Source of the DNA: Burkholderiaceae bacterium
GTDB lineage: Bacteria; Pseudomonadota; Gammaproteobacteria; Burkholderiales; Burkholderiaceae
Assembly: GCA_947455485.1 (NCBI GenBank)
Contig: CANGNV010000003.1
Location: 1-64,000 of the forward strand
Direction: 5' to 3'
Length of the DNA stretch: 64,000 nt
The notes under the pieces were generated by a model that had not been told where the DNA came from, made no database searches, and saw only the letters and a list, made by a program, of their open reading frames with translations. Of this stretch, positions 5,219-35,753 are shown piece by piece. Position numbers and translations under genes: made by a program. The stretch's first letter is position 1. Each line of letters opens with the position of its first letter.

Positions 5219-8200
5219 GCGATAAGTTTGATTACGCCGTAGCCTGCAACCCAAATAACTCGGTGATTGTTTCTGCCTGTGCGGGTAGTGGCAAGACCTG
5301 GCTATTGGTCGCACGCATGGTGCGCCTATTGATCGCTGGTGCTAAACCTCAAGAGATCTTAGCGCTGACCTTTACCCGTAAAGCTGCCCAAGAAATGCGC
5401 GACCGTCTATACGGATTGCTGGAACAGTTTTCCCAAATGACTGATGAGAAGCTCATTCATGAGCTCACGATCAGGGGTTTGAATGATGCAGAGGCTAATA
5501 AATTGCTACCGCAAGCAAGGGCGCTGTATCTCAAAGTGCTAATGAGTCCCCAATCGATTGTGATTGATACCTTTCATGGATGGTTTGGCAGACTTCTTGG
5601 AGCAGCGCCAATCTCTGCGGAAGTCCAGCCTGGATTTAGTCTTCGTGAAGATGCTAAACGTTTACAAGAAGAGTGCATGCAAGATTGGTGGGGGGATTTA
5701 CCTGCTGATCTTAAAAAACACTATGACGTTTTACTCAAAGAATTTGGCGCTTTTGAGACTGACAAGTTCTTGATGGGTAATTACAGCCTCTTTAAGCAAA
5801 GAGGTGCTTGGACATTCTTCTTAGCTTCTTGTAAGGCTAAGGGCATTAGTCCGGCCGAAGCTTTAGCGCAATGCTTGCCGAATCTATCTTTGCCAAACCC
5901 GCTAGAAGAATTTTGGCGACGCCCTGGCACTAAAGAAGATTTGCAAGTGATGCTCGATTGCTATAGCAATGGCACGCCTGGTCAAAAGAAAAGTGCGCCA
6001 TTTATTCAGAGAGTCATTGCACTGCATGCGGCAGGTAGTTCAGTGATGGAGGTTGCGGATCAATGGCAAAGCTATTTCTTAACCAAGACTCTGACGCCAC
6101 TAAAAGATATTGCGACGATGTCTGTGCCCATGCGAGATTATCTTGCTGCGACTGGCGGTGACCCAACGCAGATTACCTCCATTCGTAATGCTTGGGTGGA
6201 TGCATATGAAGCATGGTTCCCCTGGAAAAGCGATCAAGATGCTTATGCAATCAATGCCGCTTGGTTTGCGATGAGCGAGGCAATGCTAGGTCATATGCAA
6301 AAGGCAAAAGAATCGATGCGCGTGCGCGACTTCGATGATTTAGAGATTGGTGTGAGCCAGTTGATGGCTAGTTCGGATAACGCCGCTTATCTTCAAGCAC
6401 GACTAGATGCGAAGTACAGCCACATTCTGATTGATGAGTTTCAGGATACCAATCCACTGCAATGGCAGATTTTGCGTTCTTGGTTGGAGGGTTATGGACA
6501 AGACGGCTCTCGTCCAAGCGTCTTTATTGTCGGGGATCCCAAGCAGTCGATCTATCGCTTCCGCCGAGCTGACCCAAGACTGTTTACTAGTGCAACTACT
6601 TTCCTCGAGTCGACTTTACAGGCGAAGTATTTGGAAAAGAACACTACCCGCAGAAATGCCGATGCAATTAATAAAGCCGTTAACAGCATCTTTTTGACCG
6701 ATGCAGTTCCTCCGACCTATGTATTTGCCAAACAAGATACTGACTGGAAAGCGCCATTAGAGGGTATTGCTGAACAGGAGTTTGCTGCCAAGGGCGAGGC
6801 GATGTTGCTGCCACTCATTGAGCGTACAGAGCAGGATCAAGCTGAACGCACTGGTAGCGCTCTAGATAATCCCATTGAGGATTCAGGGTTGACTGTTGGA
6901 GTGCAACAGCGCTATTGGGAGGGTCAACAAGTAAGTCGCTTGATTCATCATGTTTTAGCAACACGCCAAGTAATTGATAAAAAAGATGGCAAAGAGTATT
7001 GGCGCCCAGCAAGAGCTAGCGACTTTATCTTGCTCGTTAAGCGCCGAGCCTACTTGCCGCAGTTTGAGCGAGCGCTGCGAGAAGCTGACTTGGCTTACGA
7101 TAGTTCTCGCTTAGGCGGCCTCCTGAATACTCTAGAGATCGATGACTTAATTGCCTTGCTCACTGTCTTGGTATCCCCAAGGCACGATTTGCCATTGGCG
7201 CAAGTACTGCGTAGTCCGATCTTTAGTTTTACCGAGCAGCAAATGCAGGAGCTCAGCAGTCATGTAGGCGACAGTCAAAGCGAAAGCCAAGGCCAAGCTA
7301 AATCATCTTGGTGGGATGCTTTACAAAGCAGCTCTGTGGCAGAAGTTCAGAAGGCGGCGCGCTATTTAGAGCGCTGGAGAAGTCTAGGCGAGGTATTGCC
7401 TGTACATGACCTGCTTGATCTCATTTATCAAGAGAGTAATTTACGAATCAGTTATGCGGTAGCCTCTCAAAATCTAGCGCGCGCTCAGGTATTAGCTAAT
7501 TTAGATGCGTTCTTGGAGCTCGCCTTAAATCAAGACGGTGGTCGCTACCCGAGCTTGAGTCGCTTTATCGATGAGATTAATGCGATGCGCAGGGGTGACG
7601 ATGATGAGACTCCGGATGAGGGTGATGTAGAGGCTGAGGCCGATGACGACATTGGTGAAGTAGATCTCGATAGCGAGATGTCCGAGGAAGATCAGCATAA
7701 GCGTGTGCGCCTCATGACTATTCATGGCGCTAAGGGGCTAGAGGCACCATTTGTGATCATGCTCGATGCCAACCATACAGAGTGGAAGGCACCTCATCGT
7801 GGCGTACTGATGGATTGGTCTCCAGATGAGACTGGCCCAAGCCATCTTTCTTTGTATGCAGCAAAGTCTTTGACAGAGAAGCGTGCAGCAATCTACGAAA
7901 AAGAGAATGAAGTTAGTGAGAATGAAAATTGGAACGTCCTATACGTTGCGATGACTCGCGCACAGCAAGGCTTATGGATTAGCGGCGTGCAATCTCATAT
8001 TAAAGATGGCATTAGCCAAAAATCTTGGTATGGCAGGGCACTTGCGGCAGGCATGGAGACCTTGGATGTTACCCAGTTAGGTGAACTGCCAACCCAAGAG
8101 CAGGAGAAAGTAAATTCCAACAGTAGCGAGCCATTTCAGATAAATCATTTCCAATTGTCATGGGATGCAGCCAAGCAATCCCATCAAGAAACAATTGCCG

Positions 8201-8739
8201 ATATTGAAAGCGGTGCGCTAGCGATTGCCGCAAAAGAAAAAGAGCAGGCGCAAGCGGTAGAGCAACCCGATCCAGAGATTTTGGAAGAGGGAACGCATTT
8301 TCATAAATTGCTAGAGTTTTTAACTCCGCATTCAGGTAGTCAAACAACTGCCCTAATGCCAAGCGAGCAAGAGCTCATGAATTGGCTCAGTATCGATCAA
8401 GAGCGGGCCCAAAAACTGACAGAGCGCGTTCAGACTGTTATGAATGCAAAAGCGCTCCAAAAGTACCTCACTGAAAACCAGTGGGTTCAAGCTTGGAATG
8501 AGATCGACATCGCTGATGAGGACGGCAAGGGCTTCCGCTTAGATCGCCTAGTAGAGTTTGAGGACCATTTGGCCATCCTCGATTACAAGCTCACCATTCC
8601 AGAAGAGGGTGATGAGATGTATGAGAAGTACCGCAAGCAATTGAAGGGTTACCAGGATGAGTTGGGCCGCATTCGTAAAGATAAGCCCAATAAGGCCTTT
8701 TTAATCTCTGCAAACGGTGAGATTAAAGAAATTATTTAA
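5215..8739 (+). CDS. AddA/UvrD-like ATP-dependent exonuclease (helicase-nuclease)
   Basis: SACAGSGKTWLLVARM Walker A, ILIDEFQDTNPLQW, VGDPKQSIYRFRRADP, RVRLMTIHGAKGLEAP, VLYVAMTRAQ, C-terminal LAILDYKLT nuclease motif; GTG start at 5215 overlaps the upstream TGA. Confidence 0.92.
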   Translation: MSDKFDYAVACNPNNSVIVSACAGSGKTWLLVARMVRLLIAGAKPQEILALTFTRKAAQEMRDRLYGLLEQFSQMTDEKLIHELTIRGLNDAEANKLLPQARALYLKVLMSPQSIVIDTFHGWFGRLLGAAPISAEVQPGFSLREDAKRLQEECMQDWWGDLPADLKKHYDVLLKEFGAFETDKFLMGNYSLFKQRGAWTFFLASCKAKGISPAEALAQCLPNLSLPNPLEEFWRRPGTKEDLQVMLDCYSNGTPGQKKSAPFIQRVIALHAAGSSVMEVADQWQSYFLTKTLTPLKDIATMSVPMRDYLAATGGDPTQITSIRNAWVDAYEAWFPWKSDQDAYAINAAWFAMSEAMLGHMQKAKESMRVRDFDDLEIGVSQLMASSDNAAYLQARLDAKYSHILIDEFQDTNPLQWQILRSWLEGYGQDGSRPSVFIVGDPKQSIYRFRRADPRLFTSATTFLESTLQAKYLEKNTTRRNADAINKAVNSIFLTDAVPPTYVFAKQDTDWKAPLEGIAEQEFAAKGEAMLLPLIERTEQDQAERTGSALDNPIEDSGLTVGVQQRYWEGQQVSRLIHHVLATRQVIDKKDGKEYWRPARASDFILLVKRRAYLPQFERALREADLAYDSSRLGGLLNTLEIDDLIALLTVLVSPRHDLPLAQVLRSPIFSFTEQQMQELSSHVGDSQSESQGQAKSSWWDALQSSSVAEVQKAARYLERWRSLGEVLPVHDLLDLIYQESNLRISYAVASQNLARAQVLANLDAFLELALNQDGGRYPSLSRFIDEINAMRRGDDDETPDEGDVEAEADDDIGEVDLDSEMSEEDQHKRVRLMTIHGAKGLEAPFVIMLDANHTEWKAPHRGVLMDWSPDETGPSHLSLYAAKSLTEKRAAIYEKENEVSENENWNVLYVAMTRAQQGLWISGVQSHIKDGISQKSWYGRALAAGMETLDVTQLGELPTQEQEKVNSNSSEPFQINHFQLSWDAAKQSHQETIADIESGALAIAAKEKEQAQAVEQPDPEILEEGTHFHKLLEFLTPHSGSQTTALMPSEQELMNWLSIDQERAQKLTERVQTVMNAKALQKYLTENQWVQAWNEIDIADEDGKGFRLDRLVEFEDHLAILDYKLTIPEEGDEMYEKYRKQLKGYQDELGRIRKDKPNKAFLISANGEIKEII

Positions 8740-11765: not shown

Positions 11766-12263
11766 ATGGCACTTATCGCACTTCCACAAAGCTCCTCAGA
11801 AAGCACGCTGACCCAGGCCCCACAGGCCTTGGCGGCCAATGGCGCCTATGAGTTCAAGCTCCTGAGCCACCGCATTTCAGCCGGATTTCCGAGCCCAGCA
11901 GCGGATTATGCGGAGGAAGGTCTCGATTTAAACCACTATTTAGTCCAAAACAAGCCAGCTACCTTCATGTTCACCGTCAAGGGTGATTCGATGATGGGTG
12001 CGGGTATTTGTGACGGCGACAAGGTGGTGGTCGATAAAGCCCTTAAGCCAAAACATAAAGACATCGTGGTTGCCGTAGTGGACGACGAGTACACCATCAA
12101 GCGCCTGTATCAATTGCGCGGCAAAACCGAACTCCAGCCAGAGAACCCAAATTACGAGCCCATTACCTTTAACGAGAACAGCGAACTCCAAATCTGGGGT
12201 GTAGTCGTTGGGGTAGTGCGCAAGTACAGCCACGCAAGCAGCAGAAACGGGAGGTCCGCATGA
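11766..12263 (+). CDS. umuD: UmuD-like S24 peptidase, DNA polymerase V subunit
   Basis: 165 aa; [23 protein letters not shown] catalytic Ser region; followed by umuC. Confidence 0.95.
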
Positions 12264-13561
12264 GCCAAGCTGGTCAAACCAATCAACTCTTCGCGCTCGT
12301 AGATGTGAACAACTTCTACGTATCTTGCGAGCGCGTATTTGCTCCCAAGTTAGAAGATGTACCAATGGTGGTGCTATCTAATAACGATGGTTGTGCAGTA
12401 GCGCGTAGTGCTGAAGTTAAAGCGCTGGGCGTGAAGATGGGTACACCCTGGTTTCAGATGAAGGACCTAGCTAAGCAACATGGCATCCAAGCCTATTCCT
12501 CAAACTACACCTTGTATGGCGATATGAGCGGCAGGGTGGTAGAAGTCTTAAGAAAGTTCACGCCCAATCTTGAGGTCTACAGTATTGATGAGAGCTTTCT
12601 GCAAATCGAGACCGTACTCAAGCAATACACTGATCCAACTAGCCTAGGTCAAATCATCAAGCAAGATGTTAAAGACACTACCGGCTTACCTGTATGCGTT
12701 GGTATTGGCGCTAGCAAGACGCTCGCTAAGTTGGCCAATCACTTGGCTAAAAAGAATCCTCAGTTTGCTGGTGTATGTGACATCAGTTCTATGTCTAAAG
12801 AAGCGCTCTATCAATGGATGGCAGAGACAGCCGTAGGTGAGGTGTGGGGCATTGGTGGCAAGACTGCCAAGAAGCTCAAAGAGCTCAAGATCAATAGCGT
12901 ATTTGATTTGGTGCAAATATCACCACAAGCCATGCGCCAACAGTTTGGTGTTGTGGTTGAGCGTATTTGCTACGAGTTGCGTGGCGTATCTTGCCTGCAG
13001 CTCGAAGAAGTGGCCCCAGCTAAACAGCAGATTATTTCTTCAAGAAGCTTTGGTAAGCCAGTGACCTCCATGGAAGAGTTAGCTGAGTCTGTTGCTACTC
13101 ATGCTGCAAGAGGTGCCGAGAAACTCAGAAGCCAAAAGTCAGTCACGGGCGCACTCACTATTTTTGTGCAAACCAACCCACATAAGCCGTTTGAGCCACA
13201 ACATCATCAAAGCATCACAGTGGTTCTGAGTGACCCTAGTGATAACACCTTAACGCTCACAAGCGCTGCATTAAAAGGCTTGAAGCAAATCTACAAGACA
13301 GGCTTTAAGTACAAAAAAGCAGGCGTCATTCTTAACCTCTTGGCTGACAAACCCACGATGCAGCAATCATTATTTGATGACATGGAAGTCAAAGGTAAGT
13401 CTGCTGGACTCATGAAAGCTATGGACTCGATCAATACCCGTTTTGGTAACTCTGCCATCAAAACCGCAGCATCTGGAACTAAGCAAGACTGGCAAATGAG
13501 ATCAGGCAATAGATCGCCGAACTACACCACGCAGTGGGATGAATTGCCGGTAGCACGTTAA
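12260..13561 (+). CDS. umuC: DNA polymerase V catalytic subunit UmuC
   Basis: [39 protein letters not shown]-family polymerase. Confidence 0.97.
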
Positions 13562-13991: not shown

Positions 13992-15491
13992 TTAACTTTC
14001 GGCAATATATTTAATAAAGTCGTACATCGCCAAAGTGTCTTGTGCGCAATAGTGTTTCAACTTGTTCTCCCAATCCAATTTCTCGGATGAAGAAATGTTC
14101 GGATCGGTGCATTTAAACCAGGCAATTTGTGCATCGCCACCACCACTTAATCCGTTTGAGCTCGAATAGTCGACTGTCGTAGGAATCGCCTTTACGATGT
14201 TCTTGAGAGAGTAAGACCCCATCATGACTGGTGAGTAAAAGCCATCACGTGCAATATCTAGAGTGTCAATAATGCGAGCAATCAAGGCCTCAACCGGGAC
14301 ATGAAGATCCGCACAAGTAGAGCGCTTTACTAAGGCACGAAGTTTAGAGCGTTCAAATGACGCGTTATGAACGAAGATGGGCCCATTTGTGCCAACTGCA
14401 CTCAAGAGGGTTTGAAGAAACTCGCGATCCATGTTGGGGTCATAAAACTTGAGATAGCCAAGACCATCATCAACATTGAGGATTTGATCGGCACTATCCC
14501 AGCGGTGAATTGACCATTGAAAAGGTAGGGCGTCATAGGCCTTCGTGCCAGCCAACAAAGGCACCCCTTGTTGTACAGTCTCAAAGTCCATGAAATAGCG
14601 AGGCCAAGTATAGGAGCATGCCTGAGACTTAAGATGCGGCGAGAGCCAAACCGTATTGGATTGATGCGCTGCCTGAATCATCAGGTGTTGAGGTTTTGTT
14701 AGGCTGGATGCGGGGATGTTGCGAAGATCATAAACGCCTTGTTTGGCAAAATCTTCGATGAGGTTCTTATTGGCATATGGAAGAATGGAGATAGGGACTT
14801 CAGCTAGCTTCTGAAGAAGAGCGCTGCAGCGTTCTTGATATGGGCAGTTATATGGCTCAGTGCATTGAGTGCCCATCGCAATGTCCGGCATGCTCGCGCC
14901 TAATGTAGCAATGGGCTTTAATTGGGCAATCCATTGAGGTACTTCATTCATGTTCTGGAGTACCTCTTTAGTGATGTCAGCTTCGGTGATGAGATTTTGA
15001 TAGTCCCCATTGCCCGAGTAGATAAAGTCTTTGTTGATGTGAGCAATTTGAATTTTATTTAGCGTGATCCCACAGGCTTTAGCGATATATGCTTGGACGG
15101 AAGCATCTTTTATATGTTCATTTTTCAGGCTGGTAGATGATTTCACTTCGATCATCTCCCAGGCATCAGAGTTTCGACGTAGTACATCAACACGTACTAA
15201 GGTGCCGTCATGCAGAAAAGCGGCTTCGTAAATAACCTGGATTAACGGATCATTGACTGCGGACTTTGTAGCGGCAATTGCTGATATCGCATCTAGATTG
15301 CCGGTTAAGTCGCAACCTTCCCCATAGTAGGTGCGTGCAAATTCGCCAAAGCGGTTGCCGATATAAAAAATATGTAACTCTTGCTTAATTGGTTCATTGG
15401 TGTCGAGCCAAAGCTTTTTATGGCACTGGAGCCCTGAGATAACCTTCGATTTGGTTAATACATAGAGCTTTGGCACGCTATTTGATTTCAT
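13992..15491 (-). CDS. DUF2779 domain protein: Cas4/RecB-like N-terminus plus DEDD exonuclease-like C-terminus
   Basis: TKSKVISGLQCHKKLWLDTNEP, VRVDVLRR...MIEVKSST nuclease motif, CTEPYNCPYQERC cysteines, RYFMDFETVQQGVP exonuclease motif. Confidence 0.85.
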   Translation of the reverse strand: MKSNSVPKLYVLTKSKVISGLQCHKKLWLDTNEPIKQELHIFYIGNRFGEFARTYYGEGCDLTGNLDAISAIAATKSAVNDPLIQVIYEAAFLHDGTLVRVDVLRRNSDAWEMIEVKSSTSLKNEHIKDASVQAYIAKACGITLNKIQIAHINKDFIYSGNGDYQNLITEADITKEVLQNMNEVPQWIAQLKPIATLGASMPDIAMGTQCTEPYNCPYQERCSALLQKLAEVPISILPYANKNLIEDFAKQGVYDLRNIPASSLTKPQHLMIQAAHQSNTVWLSPHLKSQACSYTWPRYFMDFETVQQGVPLLAGTKAYDALPFQWSIHRWDSADQILNVDDGLGYLKFYDPNMDREFLQTLLSAVGTNGPIFVHNASFERSKLRALVKRSTCADLHVPVEALIARIIDTLDIARDGFYSPVMMGSYSLKNIVKAIPTTVDYSSSNGLSGGGDAQIAWFKCTDPNISSSEKLDWENKLKHYCAQDTLAMYDFIKYIAES

Positions 15492-15538
15492 GGGTATATA
15501 TCCATTGGGGCTAAGGTAGATCTTATTAAATCAAAAAT

Positions 15539-15559
15539 AAATGATACTTTTTGTCATTA
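15539..15559. promoter_or_regulatory. Operator-like palindrome A
   Basis: AAATGAT-ACTTTTT-GTCATTA; same 7+7+7 architecture as two other sites, 48 nt before ATG 15608. Confidence 0.65.
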
Positions 15560-15607
15560 ATGCGGATTAGACTCTATAGTTACAAATATATGACGAGAAG
15601 AGGCCCC

Positions 15608-15871
15608 ATGTCTTTTAATGTAAATGATTGTGACTTGATTGTGATTGATGCAGCCGATACCGACTCTGGAATAGATGCTGAATATGCTTATATCAGTGAG
15701 CAGTTTGGTCCTTTTGGGGTTGGATGGCAATTGCAGCGTCAAAAGGTGTTAACGCATGTTTTGCCAGGGGAGGGCGATCAAATACAGGTGGATGTTCTCA
15801 CTATTGAGCTGGCAAATGGTGAGGTTAAGGATATCGCTTTTGATATCACCTCTTTTTATGGCAAATGGTGA
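15608..15871 (+). CDS. Hypothetical protein (87 aa), first gene of the WYL regulator unit
   Basis: MSFNVNDCDLIVIDAADTDSGIDAEYAYISEQFGPFGVGWQLQRQKVL...; no family recognised. Confidence 0.65.
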   Translation: MSFNVNDCDLIVIDAADTDSGIDAEYAYISEQFGPFGVGWQLQRQKVLTHVLPGEGDQIQVDVLTIELANGEVKDIAFDITSFYGKW

Positions 15872-15878
15872 TCGCGCA

Positions 15879-16619
15879 ATGATGCCTATTGAGTATTTAT
15901 ATGATCTTGGTCCTGTTCGTTGGGGTAACCCGAGCGAGAGTGCCTGCCTTTATTATCCAGGTGCCTATACCGATACTGGCCCGCTAGATTTGATTATGAG
16001 AAGTCGGTCTGAAAGTGCGAGTCAGCCATTTGATTCATTTGCCACGGCAATCTATGTAGATATCGCCATTACTCCTGAGGCAATAGAGCAGGTCATTCAT
16101 CGAATTAAGCATAACTATTCGACAAGAACAGTATTGGTGAGTGAAATATTGCCCGCTGACTTTGGGGCATTTAGATATGCTGATTTTTTGCCCAAGGAGG
16201 ACGATACTTTTTATGAGTCTGTGCCGAATTACGCACAGTTATACGCCGCAGAACATGATGAGTTTTTTGGTCTGCGTGCCTTTTTTCCTGAACTTCAATT
16301 AAATCTAATCTATCTCAAAGCAGAGGGAATTCAGGCGTACAGAACCCTTCAAAAAGCAAAGATCTTTCCTAATATTGTGGTCCTGCAAGATCATGGGCCT
16401 TGGGGTTATCAGTACGCCACTTTTTATGGCGAATGTCTTCTCTATAAGGCGGCAAAGAAATTGCCGCGATTCTTGTATCAAGCAACAGAGGGGGAGGCGT
16501 GGCCTGGTTACGAGCAGATCAGTGAAGGGTATTGCGATGAGGGCCAGGAGCATCGCTATGAGCGTTGTCTTAGTGCCAGAAAAACCGTTATTGCAGAAAT
16601 AAACAGAAGGAATAAGTAG
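15879..16619 (+). CDS. Hypothetical protein
   Basis: MMPIEYLYDLGPVRWGNPSESACLYYPGAYTDTGPLDL...; 8 nt after the previous stop (alternative ATG at 15858 would overlap it); 5 nt before the WYL gene. Confidence 0.7.
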   Translation: MMPIEYLYDLGPVRWGNPSESACLYYPGAYTDTGPLDLIMRSRSESASQPFDSFATAIYVDIAITPEAIEQVIHRIKHNYSTRTVLVSEILPADFGAFRYADFLPKEDDTFYESVPNYAQLYAAEHDEFFGLRAFFPELQLNLIYLKAEGIQAYRTLQKAKIFPNIVVLQDHGPWGYQYATFYGECLLYKAAKKLPRFLYQATEGEAWPGYEQISEGYCDEGQEHRYERCLSARKTVIAEINRRNK

Positions 16620-16624
16620 CGCAT

Positions 16625-17830
16625 ATGGCAAAGAAAAAGATAGCTGAGGATTTTGATTCTACTGATGAGGCTCTGGAAGAGAAAGGTGCATTGCGAGTAA
16701 TCCAGCGTCGTTGGGATGTTCTAAAAATGATTCCCCCTAATGGCCGCCTGATGAGTAAGAAAGAGGTTGCCGATCGCTTATATAAGCGCCATAGTGTTGG
16801 GCATAGTATTCAAGTATCACCAATGGCATTTTTGCGATATATCCAGCGAGATTTTGAGGCATTGAGCCGTGCAATTAATGCATTAAAGAAAGAGCAGATT
16901 ATTTCGACCCGGAAGGGTGTTTCTTGGGGTGAGGCTGGATCGCCATTTAAGTTAGCCGGCCTATCAAAAGACGAGATGATTGCGTTCGGTATGCTTAAAA
17001 AATTAGGCACATCTTGGATGCCTTCCTCTATCCGCGAGACATTAGAGCCATACTTCACGATGGCCATGGATGAGGCCAAGCAAAGGGTGATTGAGAATTC
17101 CGCCATTCCACCGCGACAGGCCGAGCTCCAGGCAAAGAAGTGGCTCGATAAGCTAGAGCGTCTTCCCGATTGGATTCAGTTTAAAAAAAGAAATATTGAT
17201 AAGAACGTCGAGAAAGTAATTCATGAGGCCTTGCTGCAAGAACAGAGTCTAGAGGTGGTCTATAAAGGCAAGCCAAGAGGTGTAATGTTTCCTCAGGCGC
17301 TAGTGCAAAGAGGCGCAAGAACTTATTTGCTTTCCACTTCGCCCAACGAACCAAGCTTGAGGCCTTACCTATTAAATAGGATGAATTCAGCCAGGATATC
17401 CCCGGAGCGCTTTAAGCTAACCCCGAAGGCTGATATTAAGGAGCAATTAAACCGGGGAATTGCTCAGCCAAAGTATTTGGAAGTTGACTATAAGGGTGAA
17501 TCGATTGCTTATGGTCAGCCAATTAAATTGCAATTTATAGCTGATGCGGGTACTGCGGATATATTGGAAGAGACTCCAATGGGGGATGATCAAGTAATTA
17601 CCCCCGTTGACTACTCATTAGTCACTCGCTGGAAGAAAGTGAAGGCGGATATTAAGTTAATTGATGAGTCTGAAAAAAATTGGGCAATCATTAGTGTCAC
17701 CGTGCTTTTGCAGGAAGAGTTGATATGGTGGTTACGTAGTCTTGGGCCATTCCTAAAGGTCATCGAGCCTGAATTTATAAGAGATCGAATTGAGTATGAC
17801 CTAAAGAGGGCTTTAGCGAACTACTCGTAA
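16625..17830 (+). CDS. WYL domain-containing transcriptional regulator
   Basis: N-terminal helix-turn-helix-like region (SPMAFLRYIQRDFEALSR), WYL-like core LEVVYKGKPRGVMFPQALVQRGARTYLLSTSPNEPSLRPYLLNRMNSA. Confidence 0.8.
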   Translation: MAKKKIAEDFDSTDEALEEKGALRVIQRRWDVLKMIPPNGRLMSKKEVADRLYKRHSVGHSIQVSPMAFLRYIQRDFEALSRAINALKKEQIISTRKGVSWGEAGSPFKLAGLSKDEMIAFGMLKKLGTSWMPSSIRETLEPYFTMAMDEAKQRVIENSAIPPRQAELQAKKWLDKLERLPDWIQFKKRNIDKNVEKVIHEALLQEQSLEVVYKGKPRGVMFPQALVQRGARTYLLSTSPNEPSLRPYLLNRMNSARISPERFKLTPKADIKEQLNRGIAQPKYLEVDYKGESIAYGQPIKLQFIADAGTADILEETPMGDDQVITPVDYSLVTRWKKVKADIKLIDESEKNWAIISVTVLLQEELIWWLRSLGPFLKVIEPEFIRDRIEYDLKRALANYS

Positions 17831-17859
17831 TCCATCCTCTTTAATTTACCGCCTCTCAC

Positions 17860-17905
17860 GAGCGCAAAGATATTTGTATTTTGAGTGTCTTTGCGCTCTT
17901 TCCCT
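17860..17905 (+). terminator. Terminator of the WYL unit
   Basis: GAGCGCAAAGA...TCTTTGCGCTC, perfect 11-bp arms, followed by T-rich tract. Confidence 0.8.
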
Positions 17906-17957
17906 TTTTATCTCTCCAACCCCATATTTATGGGGGTTAAATATATTGAGAAAGTTA

Positions 17958-17988
17958 TTTATAAATGACAAATAATGTCATTTATAAA
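17958..17988. promoter_or_regulatory. Operator-like palindrome B
   Basis: TTTATAAATGAC-AAATAAT-GTCATTTATAAA, perfect 12-bp arms; 21-bp core 17963-17983 ends 48 nt before ATG 18032. Confidence 0.75.
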
Positions 17989-18031
17989 TGGCAGTATTAA
18001 ACCTATCCCAATCAAACGGAAGGGTCTTCTC

Positions 18032-18184
18032 ATGAAAATGTTCCAAGCAACAGTCCGCCTAGGCGGCGGTAGTGTATTGCAAACATTGGAGGTTATGGCG
18101 ACAACTGCAATTGAAGCTAAAAACAATCTAGAGATGGAGTTTGGCGATGGAAATGTAGTGTATTTCCCCAAAGAAATTAGGTGA
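18032..18184 (+). CDS. Small hypothetical protein (50 aa)
   Basis: MKMFQATVRLGGGSVLQTLEVMATTAIEAKNNLEMEFGDGNVVYFPKEIR; directly upstream of the AAA+ ATPase gene. Confidence 0.65.
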   Translation: MKMFQATVRLGGGSVLQTLEVMATTAIEAKNNLEMEFGDGNVVYFPKEIR

Positions 18185-18204
18185 GTGTGTTGTGTGTAGC
18201 ACCT

Positions 18205-18229
18205 CTTCTCAGAATCGCTTTCTGGGAAG
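18205..18229 (+). promoter_or_regulatory. Hairpin between the 50-aa ORF and the AAA+ gene
   Basis: CTTCTCAGAA-TCGCT-TTCTGGGAAG, 10-bp stem with one wobble and no U-tract. Confidence 0.4.
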
Positions 18230-18263
18230 GGCTTTAAAAACCTAATAGACGAGGAAGTCAAAA

Positions 18264-20519
18264 ATGAATCTAGATCAACTATTAAATGCAAATGAACAGA
18301 ACTCAGAAGATCCGGGAGTGGTCGAAAAATTAACACCTGCTGAAAGCCTGGCTTTTCGTAAAGAGCGCCAGTTAAAGCTTAAAAAGGAAAAGTATCTCTC
18401 TATAGACCAAATACCTCAAGAGCAGCTAGAGGATGTAATAGATGCAGATGCTTCATACGCCCAGTGGTTGCGTGTAGTGTTGTTACGCACTCTTTTAAAT
18501 ACTAGTGCACTCAATAATCTAAAGTCATCTTATACATTTTGTAGTGCTAAGTTATACGGTTTTATGGGCTTCAGAAATTTTGAGGAATATTCAAAAAAGC
18601 GTGATTTGACAGAGTTGCGCGCTGATCTCTTGTTGATTTTGAGTGTATGGGAGTGTGAGCTTGGTGCTGGGTCCCGCTTCCCCAAAAATCTGACCCGTAA
18701 TTTAGAGGTCCTTGGAGAGATGGCCAACCTGACCCCTACAGAGCTGGAGGTATTGGGGCTAACAATCTTGATCCATAGCGAAGCAATTTTGCTCGAGTGT
18801 ACGGATTTGATTGGAGAGTCTGTGTCGGCATTTTCGGTTGCCAAGATCTATGCACCTATGCTGGGTGTGAAAAGTGCGCAGTTGGAATCGGTGTTCGATG
18901 AGCACTCCACTCTGAGTCGAACCGGCTTGATTTCACTGGATCATCGTGGTGAGGGCAATATTCGTTCGCGCGTCGATTTAATTACTTGGACATTTGCCAA
19001 GCGGGCGGTGATGTATCAACACAATGCTCGTGACTTAATTAAGGCATATGTGCGGCCGGTTAATGACGGTGATTTGCAAATGGTTGATTTTGATCACATT
19101 AAAGAGCGTGCCCAAGCAGTAAAGGCCTATTTGCAAGATGTCGTTGAGCAAGGCAAGTCCGGAGTCAATATCTTGATTTACGGTCGCCCAGGTACAGGTA
19201 AAACCGAATTTTCAAAGCTTATGAGCAAGGAGCTTGGTTGCGAATTGATGGAGGTTGCTGCAACTAATGTCGCGGGAAACCCTGTTACTCCTATGCGCCG
19301 CTTACGCAGTTATCGTGCAGCGCAATCCCTTTTTCAGAAGGGTAGTACCGTTATCTTGTTCGATGAATGTGAGGAGGTATTGACGGGTCGTTCGCGTCCG
19401 TTGGCAGATGATGAGGCAACCATGGCGCAAAAATCATGGATAAATCTGACTCTGGAAAGTAATGCATTGCCAGCAATCTGGGTGGCTAATTCAATTGACT
19501 CCTTTGACCAGGCTTATATTCGCCGTTTTGATATGTGTTTTGAGATGCCTAATCCCGATGAGGCTCAGCGTCGCAATATGTTAACCAAGATGTGCGGGGA
19601 AGTTTTGGGGCAGCAAATTATTGGCGATATTGCTAAAAATAAAAATACATCTCCCGCCCTGGTGGTGAAGACTGCTCAGGTAGTGAAGGCCTTGGCAGAT
19701 AACAAAACTGTAGCTGAGCGCAACGAGTTGGCATTGATGTTGGTGAACGATAAATTGCAAGCGCAGGGCGCTACTCAGGTTCAAACCTTTGACTCCGGAT
19801 CGCTTGGTTTGGGTTTTAAGCCTGACATGGTTAATTCCACAGTCAATATTCAGAATTTGCTTGATGGTGTAGCGCAAACCCGTGAAGCGCGAATCTGTGC
19901 CTGGGGGCCTCCTGGCACAGGGAAAACCGCTTTTGGTAAGTGGATGGCAGATCAGCTTGGTATTGCTCATATGGTATTGAAGGCCTCTGACTTATTGGGG
20001 TCACATGTGGGTGAAACGGAGCAAAAAATTGCTGGTGCATTTGCGGCGGCAAAACATCAGAAAGCGCTATTACAGTTTGATGAGGTTGATACCTTTCTCA
20101 TTGCCCGCACAAACGCAAAGCAAAGCTGGGAAATTAGCATGGTGAATGAAATGCTGACCCAAATGGAGTGCTTTAAAGGTGTCTTTATTGCATCCACCAA
20201 CTTGTTCGATAACTTGGATGAGGCGGCACTACGTCGTTTCGATATCAGCCTAAAGTTCGACTTTATGAAGCAAGAGCAGGCATGGGAGATGTTTATTGCT
20301 ACTTGCGAAACATTGCAATTACCAATTGGCGGTGTAGAGGTGAAGTCTCGCTTTCACGAATTACGCAACCTCACGCCTGGAGACTTCGAGCAGCTCGGTC
20401 GTCAAAGTCGTTTTCTCAAGCTCCAATCTGCGAATGATGCCCTTGAGGTGTTGGGTAAAGCGGTTGGCGTTAAAAAGTCCTGCCATTCACGCCAAATTGG
20501 ATTCCTAGCGGCCGCCTAG
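18264..20519 (+). CDS. Double AAA+ domain ATPase
   Basis: Two Walker A motifs (GRPGTGKTEF, GPPGTGKTAFGK), two Walker B motifs (VILFDECEE, LLQFDEVDTF), RRFD arginine-finger-like motifs in both halves. Confidence 0.92.
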   Translation: MNLDQLLNANEQNSEDPGVVEKLTPAESLAFRKERQLKLKKEKYLSIDQIPQEQLEDVIDADASYAQWLRVVLLRTLLNTSALNNLKSSYTFCSAKLYGFMGFRNFEEYSKKRDLTELRADLLLILSVWECELGAGSRFPKNLTRNLEVLGEMANLTPTELEVLGLTILIHSEAILLECTDLIGESVSAFSVAKIYAPMLGVKSAQLESVFDEHSTLSRTGLISLDHRGEGNIRSRVDLITWTFAKRAVMYQHNARDLIKAYVRPVNDGDLQMVDFDHIKERAQAVKAYLQDVVEQGKSGVNILIYGRPGTGKTEFSKLMSKELGCELMEVAATNVAGNPVTPMRRLRSYRAAQSLFQKGSTVILFDECEEVLTGRSRPLADDEATMAQKSWINLTLESNALPAIWVANSIDSFDQAYIRRFDMCFEMPNPDEAQRRNMLTKMCGEVLGQQIIGDIAKNKNTSPALVVKTAQVVKALADNKTVAERNELALMLVNDKLQAQGATQVQTFDSGSLGLGFKPDMVNSTVNIQNLLDGVAQTREARICAWGPPGTGKTAFGKWMADQLGIAHMVLKASDLLGSHVGETEQKIAGAFAAAKHQKALLQFDEVDTFLIARTNAKQSWEISMVNEMLTQMECFKGVFIASTNLFDNLDEAALRRFDISLKFDFMKQEQAWEMFIATCETLQLPIGGVEVKSRFHELRNLTPGDFEQLGRQSRFLKLQSANDALEVLGKAVGVKKSCHSRQIGFLAAA

Positions 20520-20564
20520 GCAGTAGACCACCTTTAGAGGGTGCTAGCTATATTTTTCAGAAGA

Positions 20565-20597
20565 AATCCTAAATGACAAATATCGTCATTTAGGATT
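20565..20597. promoter_or_regulatory. Operator-like palindrome C
   Basis: AATCCTAAATGAC-AAATATC-GTCATTTAGGATT, perfect 13-bp arms; core 20571-20591 ends 46 nt before ATG 20638. Confidence 0.75.
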
Positions 20598-20637
20598 GAT
20601 ATCCTGATGACTCAGTAAATCAAAAAGGTAAATAAAG

Positions 20638-21132
20638 ATGAAAAATCGTAAATACAATTTTGGCAAGTTATTGGCGCAAGCACAGCAGGGGCAACTCGAG
20701 GTTAAAGAGTTAAAGAAAGTCATTAAGGCAGCTCAAGACTTCGGCTTTACGGTAATTGCTGGTCAATTTCAAATGTATGTATATCAGCCGGCCAATATTG
20801 CGCCAGATCACGCACCTGCAGAGGTATTGGCCCGAGTTGCCCAGGGCATCAGTTACCTCAATGCTCATCGCATCCCCCTAACGCGCACTAAGCAAATGCT
20901 TAAACGTCACGGCGTCATCGAAACCATTCATCGCATCACATCGGATGCTATACCTAGTAAAAACCTGGAAATCCTTGCTAGTTCTAACCATCTGTATTTG
21001 TCTGCCGAAGCAATTGTGCTGGATCACCCAGAACTCTTTTCAGAGAAGGTGGTCAGCCTCGCAAAAATCAAGCTGGCAAAGGTCGATGGACACCCCAATT
21101 CTTCCTGTGGCCCATTCTTGTTGGCGGCTTAA
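20638..21132 (+). CDS. Hypothetical protein (164 aa)
   Basis: MKNRKYNFGKLLAQAQQGQLEVKELKKVIKAAQDFG...; no family recognised. Confidence 0.75.
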   Translation: MKNRKYNFGKLLAQAQQGQLEVKELKKVIKAAQDFGFTVIAGQFQMYVYQPANIAPDHAPAEVLARVAQGISYLNAHRIPLTRTKQMLKRHGVIETIHRITSDAIPSKNLEILASSNHLYLSAEAIVLDHPELFSEKVVSLAKIKLAKVDGHPNSSCGPFLLAA

Positions 21133-21171: not shown

Positions 21172-21309
21172 ATGAATTCAATCTATCAACAAACCATCGA
21201 TGCCATTCTTCATTTAAGTGCCGAAATATTTTTGGATGCTAATTCAGGTGCCGGTGATGCAATCCAGTCTACGGTTTTATGTGCAACTTCTTCTGGTATG
21301 GAGGCCTAA
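21172..21309 (+). CDS. Small 45-aa hypothetical protein
   Basis: MNSIYQQTIDAILHLSAEIFLDANSGAGDAIQSTVLCATSSGMEA*, with AGGAG upstream; stop abuts the next start; not in the ORF track. Confidence 0.5.
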   Translation: MNSIYQQTIDAILHLSAEIFLDANSGAGDAIQSTVLCATSSGMEA

Positions 21310-21684
21310 GTGAGTAAGCAAGCCTGCGCATCAATTGCATTAACTAAGACCTTATTGAATAAGGCTCTAGTAATCTCACTGTCGCTCACTTTCTCTACAT
21401 CTATTTTTGCCACTACTGAAGATCCACACCAACAATTTTCGGTGAATAAAAATAACACCAATAAATCAACCATTACTTGGCGTCCGGTTGTCGATGTTCA
21501 GGCTGAGTGCGAAAAGGAAAGTAAACGCTTGGGATATGGTGGGTTTGGCTATTCCGTAGAGGCGTGCTCCTTCTGGGACAAGAGCCCTTTAAGCAACGTT
21601 TGCACAATCATCACAGCCAAAACTGTCAATTTTCATACCGTGGGGCATGAGATTCGCCATTGCTTTCAAGGCAACTTCCACTAA
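21310..21684 (+). CDS. Small predicted secreted protein with HEIRH (HExxH) metalloprotease-like motif
   Basis: GTG start; hydrophobic N-terminus ending SIFA; C-terminus TVNFHTVGHEIRHCFQGNFH. Confidence 0.7.
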   Translation: MSKQACASIALTKTLLNKALVISLSLTFSTSIFATTEDPHQQFSVNKNNTNKSTITWRPVVDVQAECEKESKRLGYGGFGYSVEACSFWDKSPLSNVCTIITAKTVNFHTVGHEIRHCFQGNFH

Positions 21685-21707
21685 ATTCACAAATAAGAAA
21701 GTCTCAC

Positions 21708-22265
21708 ATGAAGACATTAGCATTCCCCATCATCCTGGCTGTATTACTTAGTGCCTGTAGCAGCGTTGATCCCTATACGAAGCGTGCAAACCAAGAGCGC
21801 GAGATGCAGGAGCGCTATGTGGAGCGAGCAATTAGTAATGCACCACCTTGGATGTTTAAAGTACCCAGTAGTAATTCAGCCATCTATGAGAGTGGGACGG
21901 GTGTAAGTGGAGACTTCTCAATGGCTGAGGTAAAAGCTAAAACAGATGCTTATGCCAAGATTTGCATGATGTTGGGCGGAGCTGTTAGCCAAAAGACAAA
22001 AATCTACCGGACAGATTCCGAGGTAAGCAGTACCGAGTTAAGTGAAATGGCTATGAAGGCAGGGTGCAAGGAGGTTGATTTAACGGGGATTGAGGTGCGT
22101 GATATCAAGCGCACTTCTGAAGGCGGACGTTTTCGTACCTATGTCCTGGTAGCAATGCCAACTGGAGACGCCAATATTTTGCGCAAAGCCAAAGAAGCGC
22201 ATCAGCAAAAGGAGTTGGCAATGCAACGAGCGCCTGAGGCGTTTAAAGAGCTTGATAAGCCATAA
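21708..22265 (+). CDS. Putative lipoprotein (LPP20-like)
   Basis: MKTLAFPIILAVLLSACSSV lipobox; PPWMFKVPSSNSAIYESGTGVSGDFSMAEVKAKTDAYAKIC. Confidence 0.75.
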   Translation: MKTLAFPIILAVLLSACSSVDPYTKRANQEREMQERYVERAISNAPPWMFKVPSSNSAIYESGTGVSGDFSMAEVKAKTDAYAKICMMLGGAVSQKTKIYRTDSEVSSTELSEMAMKAGCKEVDLTGIEVRDIKRTSEGGRFRTYVLVAMPTGDANILRKAKEAHQQKELAMQRAPEAFKELDKP

Positions 22266-22267
22266 GT

Positions 22268-22543
22268 ATGAATAAGTATTGCTATCGCTTCGCATGCTTG
22301 GTGGCATCTGGAGTGCTTCTTGGATGTGACAGTCCTCCGTCACCAATGTTAAGTTATGACGAGTTAAAGCGTTTCCCAGCACAATGCACAAAGGCCGATC
22401 AGCAACTGAGGCAGCTTCATGCGATCTTGGAAGCGAAGAATTTTGATAGTGATCCAGACAAGCTGAATGATGATGATCGCGCATATAACCGTCGCTTAAA
22501 ATCTACGATTTGGTGGTTTGCCTACGAGTGCGATCAATCATGA
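22268..22543 (+). CDS. Putative lipoprotein
   Basis: MNKYCYRFACLVASGVLLGCDSPPS lipobox; 2 nt after the upstream stop. Confidence 0.75.
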   Translation: MNKYCYRFACLVASGVLLGCDSPPSPMLSYDELKRFPAQCTKADQQLRQLHAILEAKNFDSDPDKLNDDDRAYNRRLKSTIWWFAYECDQS

Positions 22544-23085
22544 GTCACAGATTAGCTGCGCTACTCATATTGGGGTCGGTGTGCTGTCATTCGGTAATGG
22601 CGGGTTGTGATGTTCGATCGGCTAGCCAGCTTGTCAATGAGCGCGAAGTGGGGTCAGTATTGGATTTGGAGAAATTCAAATCCACAGGAAAGTGTTTGGT
22701 CAGATACCGACTAGTAATTGATGGAATATCCCATAATCTTGAGGCTGAGGAGCTTGGTCTCGAGCAAGAAGATTCCTTATGCTATTACGCCATTGAAAAG
22801 GCGAGGAAAGAATTGCTAGTAAGCCTGGGCGGAAAGTTCCAAACTCAGGCAGTTACGGTATGCAGCGATCAAGCGCCCCCAAGATCAAAGGTTTTGATTG
22901 GTGATGTTGTTTTGGAGAATGAGCTTGCACAAGTGAAGGATCGAAAGTACTTCACCTATCGGAACTCAAAATGCAGGCTATTCGTAGAGCGCCGAGAGTT
23001 AAACCGTAAGCTAGTCGTTAATCATGGGGTAATCTGTCAGCTTGACGATATCAGTGAGAGCTGGCTTGTTGTAGATAAGTGGTGA
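22540..23085 (+). CDS. Predicted secreted hypothetical protein
   Basis: ATGA overlap with upstream gene; MSHRLAALLILGSVCCHSVMAGC signal peptide. Confidence 0.65.
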   Translation: MSHRLAALLILGSVCCHSVMAGCDVRSASQLVNEREVGSVLDLEKFKSTGKCLVRYRLVIDGISHNLEAEELGLEQEDSLCYYAIEKARKELLVSLGGKFQTQAVTVCSDQAPPRSKVLIGDVVLENELAQVKDRKYFTYRNSKCRLFVERRELNRKLVVNHGVICQLDDISESWLVVDKW

Positions 23086-25897: not shown

Positions 25898-26320
25898 CTA
25901 TTGTGCCTTGATGAGCGCCTCAACATCCTTAATTAAAGATGCCGTTAGGTCGCGTAGCTCGTCAATGGTTGACTCTTCAATCTCTAGGTAGCCCTCGTAC
26001 TCAGCCAAATTGCGTTTTTGATGAACTGCATCAAAAACTCGCCATTTATTAGCGGGCCAGCCTAGCGTGTCGCCGAGACATTGGAATACCATGAATCGAT
26101 TTTCGCTTCTATACCCATGCCAGCGTAGGGCAGCAAGTGCCGCACCATGAGCAGCATTGTAGGCAGACGTAAATCGACCCTCTATAGACACCTCTGCGAT
26201 CCCGGAGTCTAGTAAACGTCTGTGAGAAATCTCAAGCATCCTAAGTACTTCAATTTCTTCGGAAGGTTCAGATTTAAGTTGACCAATTTTGACCAAATTA
26301 TCTAAATTTTGATTAGTCAA
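25898..26320 (-). CDS. HEPN-like protein, partner of the adjacent nucleotidyltransferase
   Basis: FTSAYNAAHGAALAALRWHGYRSENR..., HQKRNLAEYEG; overlaps the MNT gene by 8 nt. Confidence 0.7.
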   Translation of the reverse strand: MTNQNLDNLVKIGQLKSEPSEEIEVLRMLEISHRRLLDSGIAEVSIEGRFTSAYNAAHGAALAALRWHGYRSENRFMVFQCLGDTLGWPANKWRVFDAVHQKRNLAEYEGYLEIEESTIDELRDLTASLIKDVEALIKAQ

Positions 26321-26888
26321 TTAAGGCGCCATACACTGAGATGGTAGGTAGTTCTAACACTTTATTTACAAATGAATTTCGCTCTGCGCGACGATTCTCA
26401 AACTCTTTTGGTGTGTAGCAGGTGGGATTAATTTTTCGTCCTAACTTATGTTCAACTGGGGTGAGTAGATCCAGTATTTTACTAAGACGTAAATTCTTTC
26501 CGACTAAAAGAAGGTCAATGTCACTACTTGCTGTATCGGTATTTTTGGCGACCGAACCGTAGATCAATGCGTGCTGTAAATCTTGATGCAATGGTAATAA
26601 AGCAACATTGATTTCGTGATCAATACCCAATGTCTTTTTTACAAGGCTATGAAGCTCTTTATAGATAGGTGAGCTTTGATTGGCTTTGCAAATTCTTAAG
26701 TTTCCAAGCTTTGTTGAGCTAATAATCCCGCTTTCCGAAAGTCGGTTTAACTCTCTCTGTAGTGATGCGCTACTTAACTTAGTCAGGCGCAATAATTCAC
26801 TTAAATGAAATTCTCGTTCAGGATGGCCAAAGACCCAGCCTAAGACTAGGCTTTGGCTGGGTGAAAAAAGAGCGCTTGATAGTGACAT
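26313..26888 (-). CDS. MNT-type nucleotidyltransferase with N-terminal winged HTH
   Basis: ALIYGSVAKNTDTASSDIDLLLVG (GS-X10-DxD); N-terminal HLSELLRLTKLSSASLQRELNRLSESGII. Confidence 0.85.
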   Translation of the reverse strand: MSLSSALFSPSQSLVLGWVFGHPEREFHLSELLRLTKLSSASLQRELNRLSESGIISSTKLGNLRICKANQSSPIYKELHSLVKKTLGIDHEINVALLPLHQDLQHALIYGSVAKNTDTASSDIDLLLVGKNLRLSKILDLLTPVEHKLGRKINPTCYTPKEFENRRAERNSFVNKVLELPTISVYGALID

Positions 26889-27084: not shown

Positions 27085-27552
27085 TTATTGATCTGGCTTA
27101 TGACCAGAGCATTCATTAGGCTCTAATTCCTTATCCCATAAATCATACTTAGATTGCATTACTATCCACAGCTGAGGCCCATTGCCTAAATAAGTGCCTA
27201 GCCTTAGCGCTAGTTTTGGTGTGATGCGGTATCTCTCAGACAGAACAGCATGCAGAGTTTGCTTTGAGACTCCAAGATGCTTGGCAAATGTAGCGGCAGA
27301 AATGCCCAATGCAGGTAAAACATCCTCTCGCAGGATAGTGCCAGGGTGGGTAGGCAATCGTTTACGCATACTTTTGGAAAGTGAGTTTCTTGCGTTGATT
27401 TTTTTCAGCGCATTTCGAAAATCTTTGAGATCTTCATAGCTGTGTGCTTCTGTAAGGCCGATAGATTTCCTCTGATCTAATTCTTTTGCTATTTCCCTTG
27501 CTCTTGCAAAAAAATCGTCAACATTTCTGAGTCTGACTATTGGTTTTCGCAT
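27085..27552 (-). CDS. HigA-family XRE antitoxin with extra N-terminal domain
   Basis: C-terminal LPTHPGTILREDVLPALGISAATFAKHLGVSKQTLHAVLSERYRITPKLALRLGTYLGNGPQLWI is a HigA signature; N-terminal VRLRNVDDFFARAREIAKELDQRKSI. Confidence 0.85.
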   Translation of the reverse strand: MRKPIVRLRNVDDFFARAREIAKELDQRKSIGLTEAHSYEDLKDFRNALKKINARNSLSKSMRKRLPTHPGTILREDVLPALGISAATFAKHLGVSKQTLHAVLSERYRITPKLALRLGTYLGNGPQLWIVMQSKYDLWDKELEPNECSGHKPDQ

Positions 27553-28053: not shown

Positions 28054-29037
28054 TCAATACAAACCCAGTGCTTTGGTTAATTCCGCCTTTACCCTTGTCT
28101 TAAGACTAGCCGGCCCAATTACCTCAACGCCTGATCCATGTTTCAGGATATCCATAACCAACTCGGGATCTTGGTTGTAATCAAACTCTAGGTTGTAATA
28201 ACCGTCTTTATCAAAGCTGCCCACTTGCTGGCCATGCCAATGCTCGCCTGACACCCATTTTGCATGCTCAGGAGTAAAGCGTAGCTTAGCTCTTTGTGTG
28301 GCTTTACCTGAGAAGATACCGTAGCTCTGTGCAAAGTGTTCCTGACATTCTTTTTCAGAAACTTCTTGAGCTTTCTTATTGGTAAGTACTGCACTCTGAA
28401 TACCATCTACAGAAAAACTCCTCAAACCATTGCGTAAGTGGCAATACGCATCGAGGTACCAGTTCTCGCGGTAATAGATTAATCGTTGAGGAGAGATTTC
28501 ACGAGCAGTGTTCTCGTCTTTACCCCTAGAGTGGTAGGTGATCTCTAGACGATTACGTTTGAGTAGGGCGGCACCAATTTCAGAGAAGTTCTCAATAGAG
28601 TTCTTACGTGAACCCATGCCGATTACTTTGATGCGTTTACGTAACTCTTTAGCTGTTGCTTCACTTTGACCAAGGATGCCATCAATGATGGCTGTAAGTG
28701 GCTCAATATGGGGTCCAATTAAACCGCCTTGATCGAGGGAGGAGAGTAAGTGCTGCATTAGTACTAAGGCAGTAGCCTCTTTCTCGGAGAACCAGAGGCC
28801 TGGCATCTCAATCCTCTCGATCGAGGAGGAATTCTCAAACTTATATCCACCCATGAAGCGGTCATAAACTATGGATGCCTGCATACGGCTACGCAGATAC
28901 TCTAGGTCACGCTTGAAGGTAGCGGGGGAGATCTCTAGCTCGGATAAGAAATCCTCCCTTGGAACGCATTTGCGTTGCTGAATCATGTACTTAATCCGGT
29001 GCAGACGCTCCATATCGCTCATATCAACCCAATCCAA
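28054..29037 (-). CDS. WYL domain-containing HTH transcriptional regulator
   Basis: RLHRIKYMIQQRKCVPREDFLSELEISPATFKRDLEYLRSRM HTH; LEITYHSRGKDENTAREISPQRLIYYRENWYLDAYCHLRNGLRSFSVDGIQSA WYL. Confidence 0.93.
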   Translation of the reverse strand: MDWVDMSDMERLHRIKYMIQQRKCVPREDFLSELEISPATFKRDLEYLRSRMQASIVYDRFMGGYKFENSSSIERIEMPGLWFSEKEATALVLMQHLLSSLDQGGLIGPHIEPLTAIIDGILGQSEATAKELRKRIKVIGMGSRKNSIENFSEIGAALLKRNRLEITYHSRGKDENTAREISPQRLIYYRENWYLDAYCHLRNGLRSFSVDGIQSAVLTNKKAQEVSEKECQEHFAQSYGIFSGKATQRAKLRFTPEHAKWVSGEHWHGQQVGSFDKDGYYNLEFDYNQDPELVMDILKHGSGVEVIGPASLKTRVKAELTKALGLY

Positions 29038-29129
29038 AGAAGAGAAACATTTATTGTTTTTATAACTTTAGATACTTTATAGCTCATTTATTGAGCTAGT
29101 GGCAACTATGTAGTAAATACGGCGTTAAA

Positions 29130-29759: not shown

Positions 29760-29836
29760 ATTGAGCTTCTGAAGAGTATTCATAACAACAGAATAAAAAC
29801 CTTAAAGCTCACCTAATGAGCTAGTAGCTCAAGAAA

Positions 29837-33700: not shown

Positions 33701-33885
33701 TTTATTGATATCTGGTCTAGCAATTCAGGAATTCTAGAAACTAATTCTGAAATGAGATAGCTGCGACTATTTTCTGCTGAAGGCAATTCAATGCTTGCTC
33801 GACCTTCTCGCTCCAATTCGTCAAGCTCCGGCAACTCACTTTCATAAATTAATCTATCGTATAGGCCATGCTTAAATTTTGACAT
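30748..33885 (-). CDS. DEAD/DEAH helicase with N-terminal PLD nuclease domain and C-terminal DUF3427
   Basis: RLHAKAWIF...GSANLS (PLD), VVAATGTGKTVVAAF, VIIDEAHHLPA, LLGLTATPERTDG, QQIGRGLRLS, C-terminal SGNGWKFFLFVRENN. Confidence 0.93.
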   Translation of the reverse strand: MSKFKHGLYDRLIYESELPELDELEREGRASIELPSAENSRSYLISELVSRIPELLDQISINKDGSDEKAKIELKLISEILKQARLLAKADQDTELLATPPQLLKSIHEPNLPGIFPITGLRSSWLFSSSKSEPALLSELISELQAVDSVDILVSFITWSGVRKIYDVLKSITSVNAQGKSKTKFRFITTTYIGATDARAVNSLAELPNVELKISLDGRRTRLHAKAWIFKRDTGFGTAYIGSANLSESALVSGIEWTIKIAQKTSGQVYQNAEAHFETLWNDAEFQTYDPYNESHREALNRALHEQKYLTTKSSPSEIIANQTWFELRPKFYQQGMLDRLQSERDQNRKKNLVVAATGTGKTVVAAFDYERVCRQEGGQPKLLFVAHRVQILKQAIYTFRQVLRDSSFGELMDGNNEPTQYEHLFATINTINTRNLIDKLGNDYWLMVIIDEAHHLPAQSFDKFATSIKPKILLGLTATPERTDGMSLGKYFDLRPDGSPSVSLRLWDALDQQLLAPFEYYATHDDIDLTSIDWRKSNIENQLDAIISSNNVRARSVYQAVERYSSSLDDLKSIGFCVSVKHAEFMADFFNKRNIPARSLTGAQSELERNIAIKELSSGNIKVIFTCDLFNEGVDIPEINTLLLLRPTQSPILFQQQIGRGLRLSIGKDCCLVLDFIGNYSEEFRFDILFRSLTGQTRLRIKEAVESGFSFLPPGCYIQFDKVARERVLDSLKKSLKLNSLRLTSELAAWASTKSREQITLNNFLIENQIEVSDIYNGKHYWNEYKLRCNLISHPIDVVDDKLSKRFGSLLYVDDRELLTCWREALSGKPIDLVRTQMLAYQLITSGTISPDQFITKLINQPYAKDELIELIDWQLNQSDKSYISLENAPASWPISLHCRYTRSDILTAVGFRDALKRPDFREGCLTLDGIKTELMFVTLDKSKGFNESVQYHDYAISPSLFHWQTQNKASLSNKTGRRYIESASGNGWKFFLFVRENNESAFLALGEAILQAYEGERPIQITWLLKQAMTAEIFRRLSIIRSA

Positions 33886-35323: not shown

Positions 35324-35656
35324 GAAATAGATCTATTGATATTGGTATTTATGTTGTTTCATACTATTACATAACAAGACTGGCTCATATTCTGACCTTT
35401 AACCCATCCATTTCCTACATCCAAATCATCCCTAATGCCTGTCATTTGGTCTTGCCAACCTCTACGCTAAATCTTTCAGACTACGGCGGAGATTTGGATG
35501 CGACTTTCAATTGAGTGTTCTCACAAGCATTTAAAGCTATTCCGAATCTCTTTGGATTCAAGGGTCATGCTGGTTTTGCTGATTATTTGGATGATTTGGG
35601 GGATCTTCAGGGTCTTAAAGATCCTGTAATTGAGCTAAATCTAGCTTGGGGGAGGT

Positions 35657-35753
35657 GGACGAGCCCGACCCCCGGCACTGACAGAATTGGGTTTGGCTGC
35701 TTCGTTCCCGACCTGACCAGGTTATCCAAACCGCCATGCGGGGAGGCCCGTCC
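35657..35753 (-). ncRNA. ffs: Signal recognition particle RNA (4.5S, small bacterial type)
   Basis: Minus strand GGACGGGCCTCCCCGC...AACCTGGTCAGGTCGGGAACGAAGCAGCC...GGGGTCGGGCTCGTCC; apical SRP motif and pairing ends. Confidence 0.93.

Follow-up and report, generated by a model that had tools for sequence, protein, structure and literature searches.

Three palindromes, A, B and C, upstream of a small gene block in a freshwater Polynucleobacter are probably bound by a WYL-WCX protein that the block itself encodes (16625-17830), which, on the analogy of DriD, would work as a transcriptional activator. The block lies in a 64,000-nucleotide stretch of DNA, referred to below as the window, from a host genome of 1.65 Mb that is 85% complete. 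For comparison we use a sister species (G527) and a more distant relative (G399). The three sites are:

15539-15559: site A, AAATGAT-ACTTTTT-GTCATTA, a putative DriD-type operator in a divergent promoter region; the 21-mer is identical in G527.
17963-17983: core of site B, AAATGAC-AAATAAT-GTCATTT, with perfect arms extending over 17957-17989.
20571-20591: core of site C, AAATGAC-AAATATC-GTCATTT, with perfect arms extending over 20565-20597.

All three 21-mers were re-found where the initial annotation of this DNA had placed them, and re-measurement of the distance from each site to the next in-frame ATG gave the same 48 (A), 48 (B) and 46 nt (C). In sites B and C, two 13-bp arms flank a 7-nt spacer as a perfect inverted repeat; the 13-bp arms first reported for C are correct, while those of B are 13 bp long, not 12. 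Both show GAC...GTC in a 7+7+7 layout, and site A, which is imperfect with mismatches at the innermost and the seventh pair, has GAT/GTC instead. Outside the core, B and C each have six further base pairs of outer arm that are perfectly self-complementary, mutually different and lost in G527. On its other side, site A is separated by 47 nt from the start codon of a divergent gene encoding a DUF2779 protein (13992-15491, minus strand), bringing to four the start codons found at 46-48 nt from these sites. Given that site A is divergent and faces the DUF2779 gene, the block contains four transcription units, not the three initially proposed to form a self-contained regulon; that gene had been overlooked, but the local confinement of the regulon was supported. 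Specifically, the pattern AAATGAY-N7-GTCATTW occurs exactly three times in the host genome, as A, B and C, against a chance expectation of 0.086 occurrences over both strands of the entire genome or 0.003 in the window, and a reversed control pattern has 0 occurrences in the same genome. On allowing three mismatches the host genome yields 104 matches to the motif and 117 to the control; this lack of excess means that the 85%-complete assembly gives no sign of a wider regulon.

In Caulobacter crescentus DriD binds ATACGAC-N7-GTCGTAT over the -35 position, and its promoters have a fixed distance to a weak -10 element and almost no -35 (PMC12340889). In the window the following elements were recognized:

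15568-15573, plus strand: putative -10 TAGACT for rightward transcription from site A, spaced 16 nt from where the right half-site begins; conserved in G527.
15525-15530, minus strand: putative -10 TTTAAT of the leftward DUF2779 promoter, at the same spacing; identical in G527.
15575-15580, plus strand: alternative -10 TATAGT at site A, with the -35 TTGTCA.
17992-17997, plus strand: putative -10 CAGTAT at site B, with an alternative TATTAA 3 nt downstream.
20600-20605, plus strand: putative -10 TATCCT at site C; TATTCT in G527.

Counted from the first base of the right half-site, the best -10 hexamer falls at +15/+16 in 20 of 22 sites, as against 2.1 +/- 1.4 in shuffles, with sites oriented by the nearest start codon and a few of these assignments being soft. 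A larger set of family promoters gave the same picture (25/29 with the best -10 at 15-16 nt), and in this 29-promoter set no conservation of a -35 was detected, the best match being 2.3/6 versus a random 2.4. The sites overlap the -35 position, keep a fixed distance to the -10 and are accompanied by a poor -35, with site A having in addition a good classical promoter, TTGTCA-N18-TATAGT, that overlaps it. Due to this classical promoter, the regulator's own unit may have basal expression or even be repressed.

The fixed relation to the -10 elements also bears on a reading in which the repeats are RNA or DNA hairpins, i.e. terminators or attenuators, rather than protein-binding sites. The intergenic location of B and C and their 13-bp perfect arms are compatible with such structures, but the repeats are AT-rich (G+C of 12% in B and 27% in C), no T-run follows the right arm, and G527 has lost the outer arms while keeping the core, which is altered in turn in G399. 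We consider hairpins a very improbable explanation.

The genes of the block are organized as follows:

13992-15491, minus strand: DUF2779/TM0106-like nuclease of the RecB/Cas4 type with a C-terminal DEDD-type exonuclease-like domain (Pfam DUF2779, 4.7e-26).
15608-15871, plus strand: hypothetical 87-aa ORF, first in the WYL unit, with no family match; G527 orthologue 63% identical.
15879-16619, plus strand: hypothetical 246-aa ORF with no Pfam family; 73% identical in G527.
16625-17830, plus strand: DriD-like WYL-WCX regulator (Pfam WYL and WCX; DriD first by profile and fold), proposed binder of A-C.
18032-18184, plus strand: 50-aa ORF ahead of the ATPase, 88% identical in G527 and 41% in G399.
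18264-20519, plus strand: double AAA+ (Cdc48/VCP-like) ATPase, with two AAA domains and two Walker A motifs.
20638-21132, plus strand: hypothetical 164-aa protein that opens the third unit, with no family match; its G527 and G399 orthologues are preceded by the same type of site.
21172-23085, plus strand: remainder of the putative third unit, comprising small hypothetical proteins and a lipoprotein.

The DUF2779 protein combines PD-(D/E)XK-type and DEDD-type features with four cysteines (C23, C210, C216, C222); a D..EVK motif and a DFE motif were recognized in it, along with weak PADLOC matches to Cas4 and DEDDh, and its orthologues adjoin WYL and AAA2 genes in other loci. Within the literature searched, no paper was found to link DUF2779 or TM0106 with WYL. 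The gene for the double AAA+ ATPase follows the 50-aa ORF and begins 280 nt beyond site B. Its product has VCP-like ATPases as its nearest solved structures and matches phrog_10401, a phage family of this ATPase, with 2.2e-110; a 38% identical double AAA+ ATPase is also encoded by a metagenomic phage record (MT835507.1, our locus L194). It shares AAA+ domain similarity with the IetAS system (AAA+ ATPase plus protease), but differs in carrying two AAA+ domains, and its identification as IetA was rejected, since it scores 101.8 bits where the IetA-type model has a curated cut-off of 510. No serine protease partner was found among the annotated neighbours. The locus of G399 also holds orthologues of the 124-aa ORF and the lipoprotein of the third unit, and nothing informative matched the remaining ORFs of the block in family searches.

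The predicted regulator matches Pfam WYL and WCX above cut-off, and these domains are preceded by an N-terminal wHTH, the helices of which fall in the low-confidence part of an AlphaFold model of moderate confidence overall (mean pLDDT 65.7, pTM 0.41, HTH region poorly modelled). Profile comparisons with solved relatives recovered DriD as the best match (3e-14 to 1e-13), followed by PafBC and then by BrxR and CapW; likewise, the Foldseek ranks 1-8 are all DriD, ahead of BrxR and CapW. By neither profile nor fold is the best match to BrxR or CapW, DriD and PafBC scoring better. Identity to DriD itself is low (12-16%). A search of viral contigs with the WYL protein gave no matches.

DriD, a WYL protein that activates a response to damage independently of SOS, shares with the system in the window the wHTH-WYL-WCX architecture, the 7+7+7 layout with inner GAC/GTC and the overlap of the site with the -35 position. 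The two differ in their half-sites, which are AAATGAC in the window and AGACGAT/ATCGTTT in G399, and in the scope of the regulon: that of DriD is dispersed (didA, bapE, recJ, dnaG), whereas that in the window is local and mobile and comprises a nuclease and an AAA+ ATPase. Moreover, DriD is not self-controlling, while in the window a site precedes the regulator's own unit. The mycobacterial PafBC is likewise an ssDNA-sensing WYL-WCX activator, and the spacing of half-site to -10 in its RecA-NDp motif looks similar to that of the sites in the window. However, PafBC is a heterodimer that binds a non-palindromic site only with RNA polymerase present; here a PafBC-like heterodimeric or fused arrangement acting on a non-palindromic site was not found, and there are instead a single WYL-WCX protein and palindromic sites.

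BrxR and CapW present the converse model, in that the WYL protein would bind the sites but repress, with a ligand releasing the repressor during infection. WYL proteins that adjoin defence genes frequently bind inverted repeats as repressors (PMC9122601), the block has defence genes in its neighbourhood, and the classical promoter overlapped by site A could be a target of repression. Against this, the inverted repeats of BrxR are spaced by 5 bp and situated downstream of the -10 (PMC9122601), in contrast to the 7-bp spacer and the upstream position at a fixed distance seen here; the promoters at B and C lack a -35 at which repression could act; and BrxR and CapW, which are also shorter (about 295 aa), fall well below DriD by profile and fold similarity. 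Given the DriD-like geometry and the ranking of DriD, together with the different spacer and position in BrxR, we favour activation, for which we have a fair degree of confidence, and regard repression as unlikely.

We also examined related genomes, in which the double AAA+ ATPase is patchily distributed (5/186 genomes of the genus, 39/398 of the order). In G527, with an ATPase 83-84% and a WYL protein 73% identical, B and C retain TGAC-N7-GTCA with drifted outer arms. In G399 (ATPase 54-56%, WYL 40% identical) the form CGAT-N7-ATCG occurs ahead of three genes, those for the 50-aa ORF, the double AAA+ ATPase and the 164-aa protein, with a fourth copy elsewhere in the locus. The motif thus stands upstream of orthologous units, as a dedicated regulon would predict: G527 has it there, and G399 has a changed version of it. 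The same 7+7+7 architecture recurs at other loci with the WYL/AAA+ pair: Burkholderiales loci with a trio of double AAA+, DUF2779 and WYL genes have TGCGAC-N7-GTCGCA upstream of DUF2779 or AAA2, and on plasmids of Rhodoferax antarcticus and Diaphorobacter the ATPase, DUF2779 and WYL genes stand in a row with a site of this type before the ATPase. Scanning 398 whole genomes for the exact TGCGACA-N5-TGTCGCA yielded matches in 14; a DUF2779, WYL or AAA2 gene lies within 1.5 kb at 12/16 fetched sites, and at five of the nine loci outside the set from which the pattern was derived the site adjoins a trio gene at the same distance. Among 49 examined loci the neighbours include the ATPase in 44, WYL in 24 and DUF2779 in 14; these loci were picked by ATPase or WYL matches, and hence only the co-occurrence is informative.

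In other genera several AAA2 loci lack such a site or a nearby WYL gene, and homologues of the 164-aa protein in G008, G497 and G023 have no matching upstream site. Matches to the AT-rich motif at one or two mismatches in other genomes of the genus were taken as chance, since the five inspected were not beside trio genes. A scan for long perfect palindromes across the loci missed most sites because the outer arms are not conserved, whereas a short-core scan succeeded. When any 5-bp arm pair with spacers of 3-12 was counted across the loci, spacer 7 showed no excess over others, as GC-rich loci yield many chance pairs; the recurrence of such pairs was used solely to spot the CGACA-N5-TGTCG motif. 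A covariation at one residue of the presumed recognition helix (R to S in G399, alongside G to A at the first base of the half-site) was suggestive but was discarded, because it is contradicted by G357, whose WYL protein is devoid of the usual arginines in that helix and whose site nonetheless retains GAC/GTC. Two further genomes of Polynucleobacter (L044:10229-11596 and L045:7060-8472) have a DriD-type site ahead of a protein with an M41-peptidase domain, which adjoins WYL and DUF2779 genes without the double AAA+ ATPase and might be a second effector of the same switch.

That the motif tracks the WYL-DUF2779-AAA2 trio across genera also argues against the palindromes being operators of another regulator. 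Further regulators do occur within 10 kb of site C, namely a second WYL protein (28054-29037) and an HTH protein (27085-27552), and a chromosomal factor could be invoked as well. However, the genome has no further copies of the motif, and the second WYL protein is adjoined by palindromes of different construction, TAGCTCA..TGAGCTA, making this reading quite improbable. The second protein (minus strand) is also of the WYL-WCX type and 85% identical in G399; its palindromes lie at 29082-29096 and 29807-29821, and a similar one is found ahead of its G399 orthologue (L041 at 346).

Within 14 kb of the block are a type IV methyl-directed restriction helicase, in which PLD and DUF3427 domains are present (30748-33885, minus strand; 638 bits, PADLOC mREase_IV), and a PDC-M05 nucleotidyltransferase defence candidate (26313-26888, minus strand). 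These neighbouring restriction genes suggest that the block lies in a defence island, and the plasmid copies of the trio lie near PLD/helicase genes. Such a context favours a defence or DNA-repair function. Just ahead of the block lie a gene for a UvrD/AddA-like helicase-nuclease (5170-8739) and, as read from the sequence, UmuD/UmuC-like genes (11766-13561), and a bacterial small SRP RNA gene is present at 35655-35752 (minus strand).

Taken as a DriD-type activator, which the DriD-like layout, the best profile and fold match, the fixed -10 and the lack of a -35 point to, the WYL protein would read, as a homodimer, two inverted half-sites 7 bp apart at the usual position of the -35, and would help sigma70 RNA polymerase start at promoters with a weak -10 and without a -35. 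By analogy with DriD and PafBC the inducer is likely to be ssDNA held by the WYL domains, signalling replication-related or phage-inflicted DNA damage. The local regulon would comprise the DUF2779 nuclease (leftward from A), the regulator's own unit (rightward from A), the 50-aa ORF and ATPase (B) and the string of the 164-aa protein and lipoprotein (C), and would act in defence or DNA repair. More tentatively, the widespread and mobile trio of Cdc48-like double AAA+ ATPase, Cas4/RecB-DEDD DUF2779 protein and DriD-like WYL regulator could constitute an undescribed anti-phage or DNA-damage system with an SOS-independent ssDNA switch, in which the half-sites shift together with the regulator between species.

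To our knowledge, no WYL activator of this type has been studied better than DriD, which is known from a single alphaproteobacterium, where its regulon is chromosomal. If our proposal is correct, its promoter logic would serve as a plug-in switch of mobile defence-like modules across many beta- and some gammaproteobacteria, coupling the sensing of ssDNA to induced expression of a nuclease and an ATPase. Targets of WYL activators could then be predicted by searching for YGAY-N7-RTCR combined with a -10 placed 15-16 nt away, and a hitherto unnamed gene trio would become a testable system.
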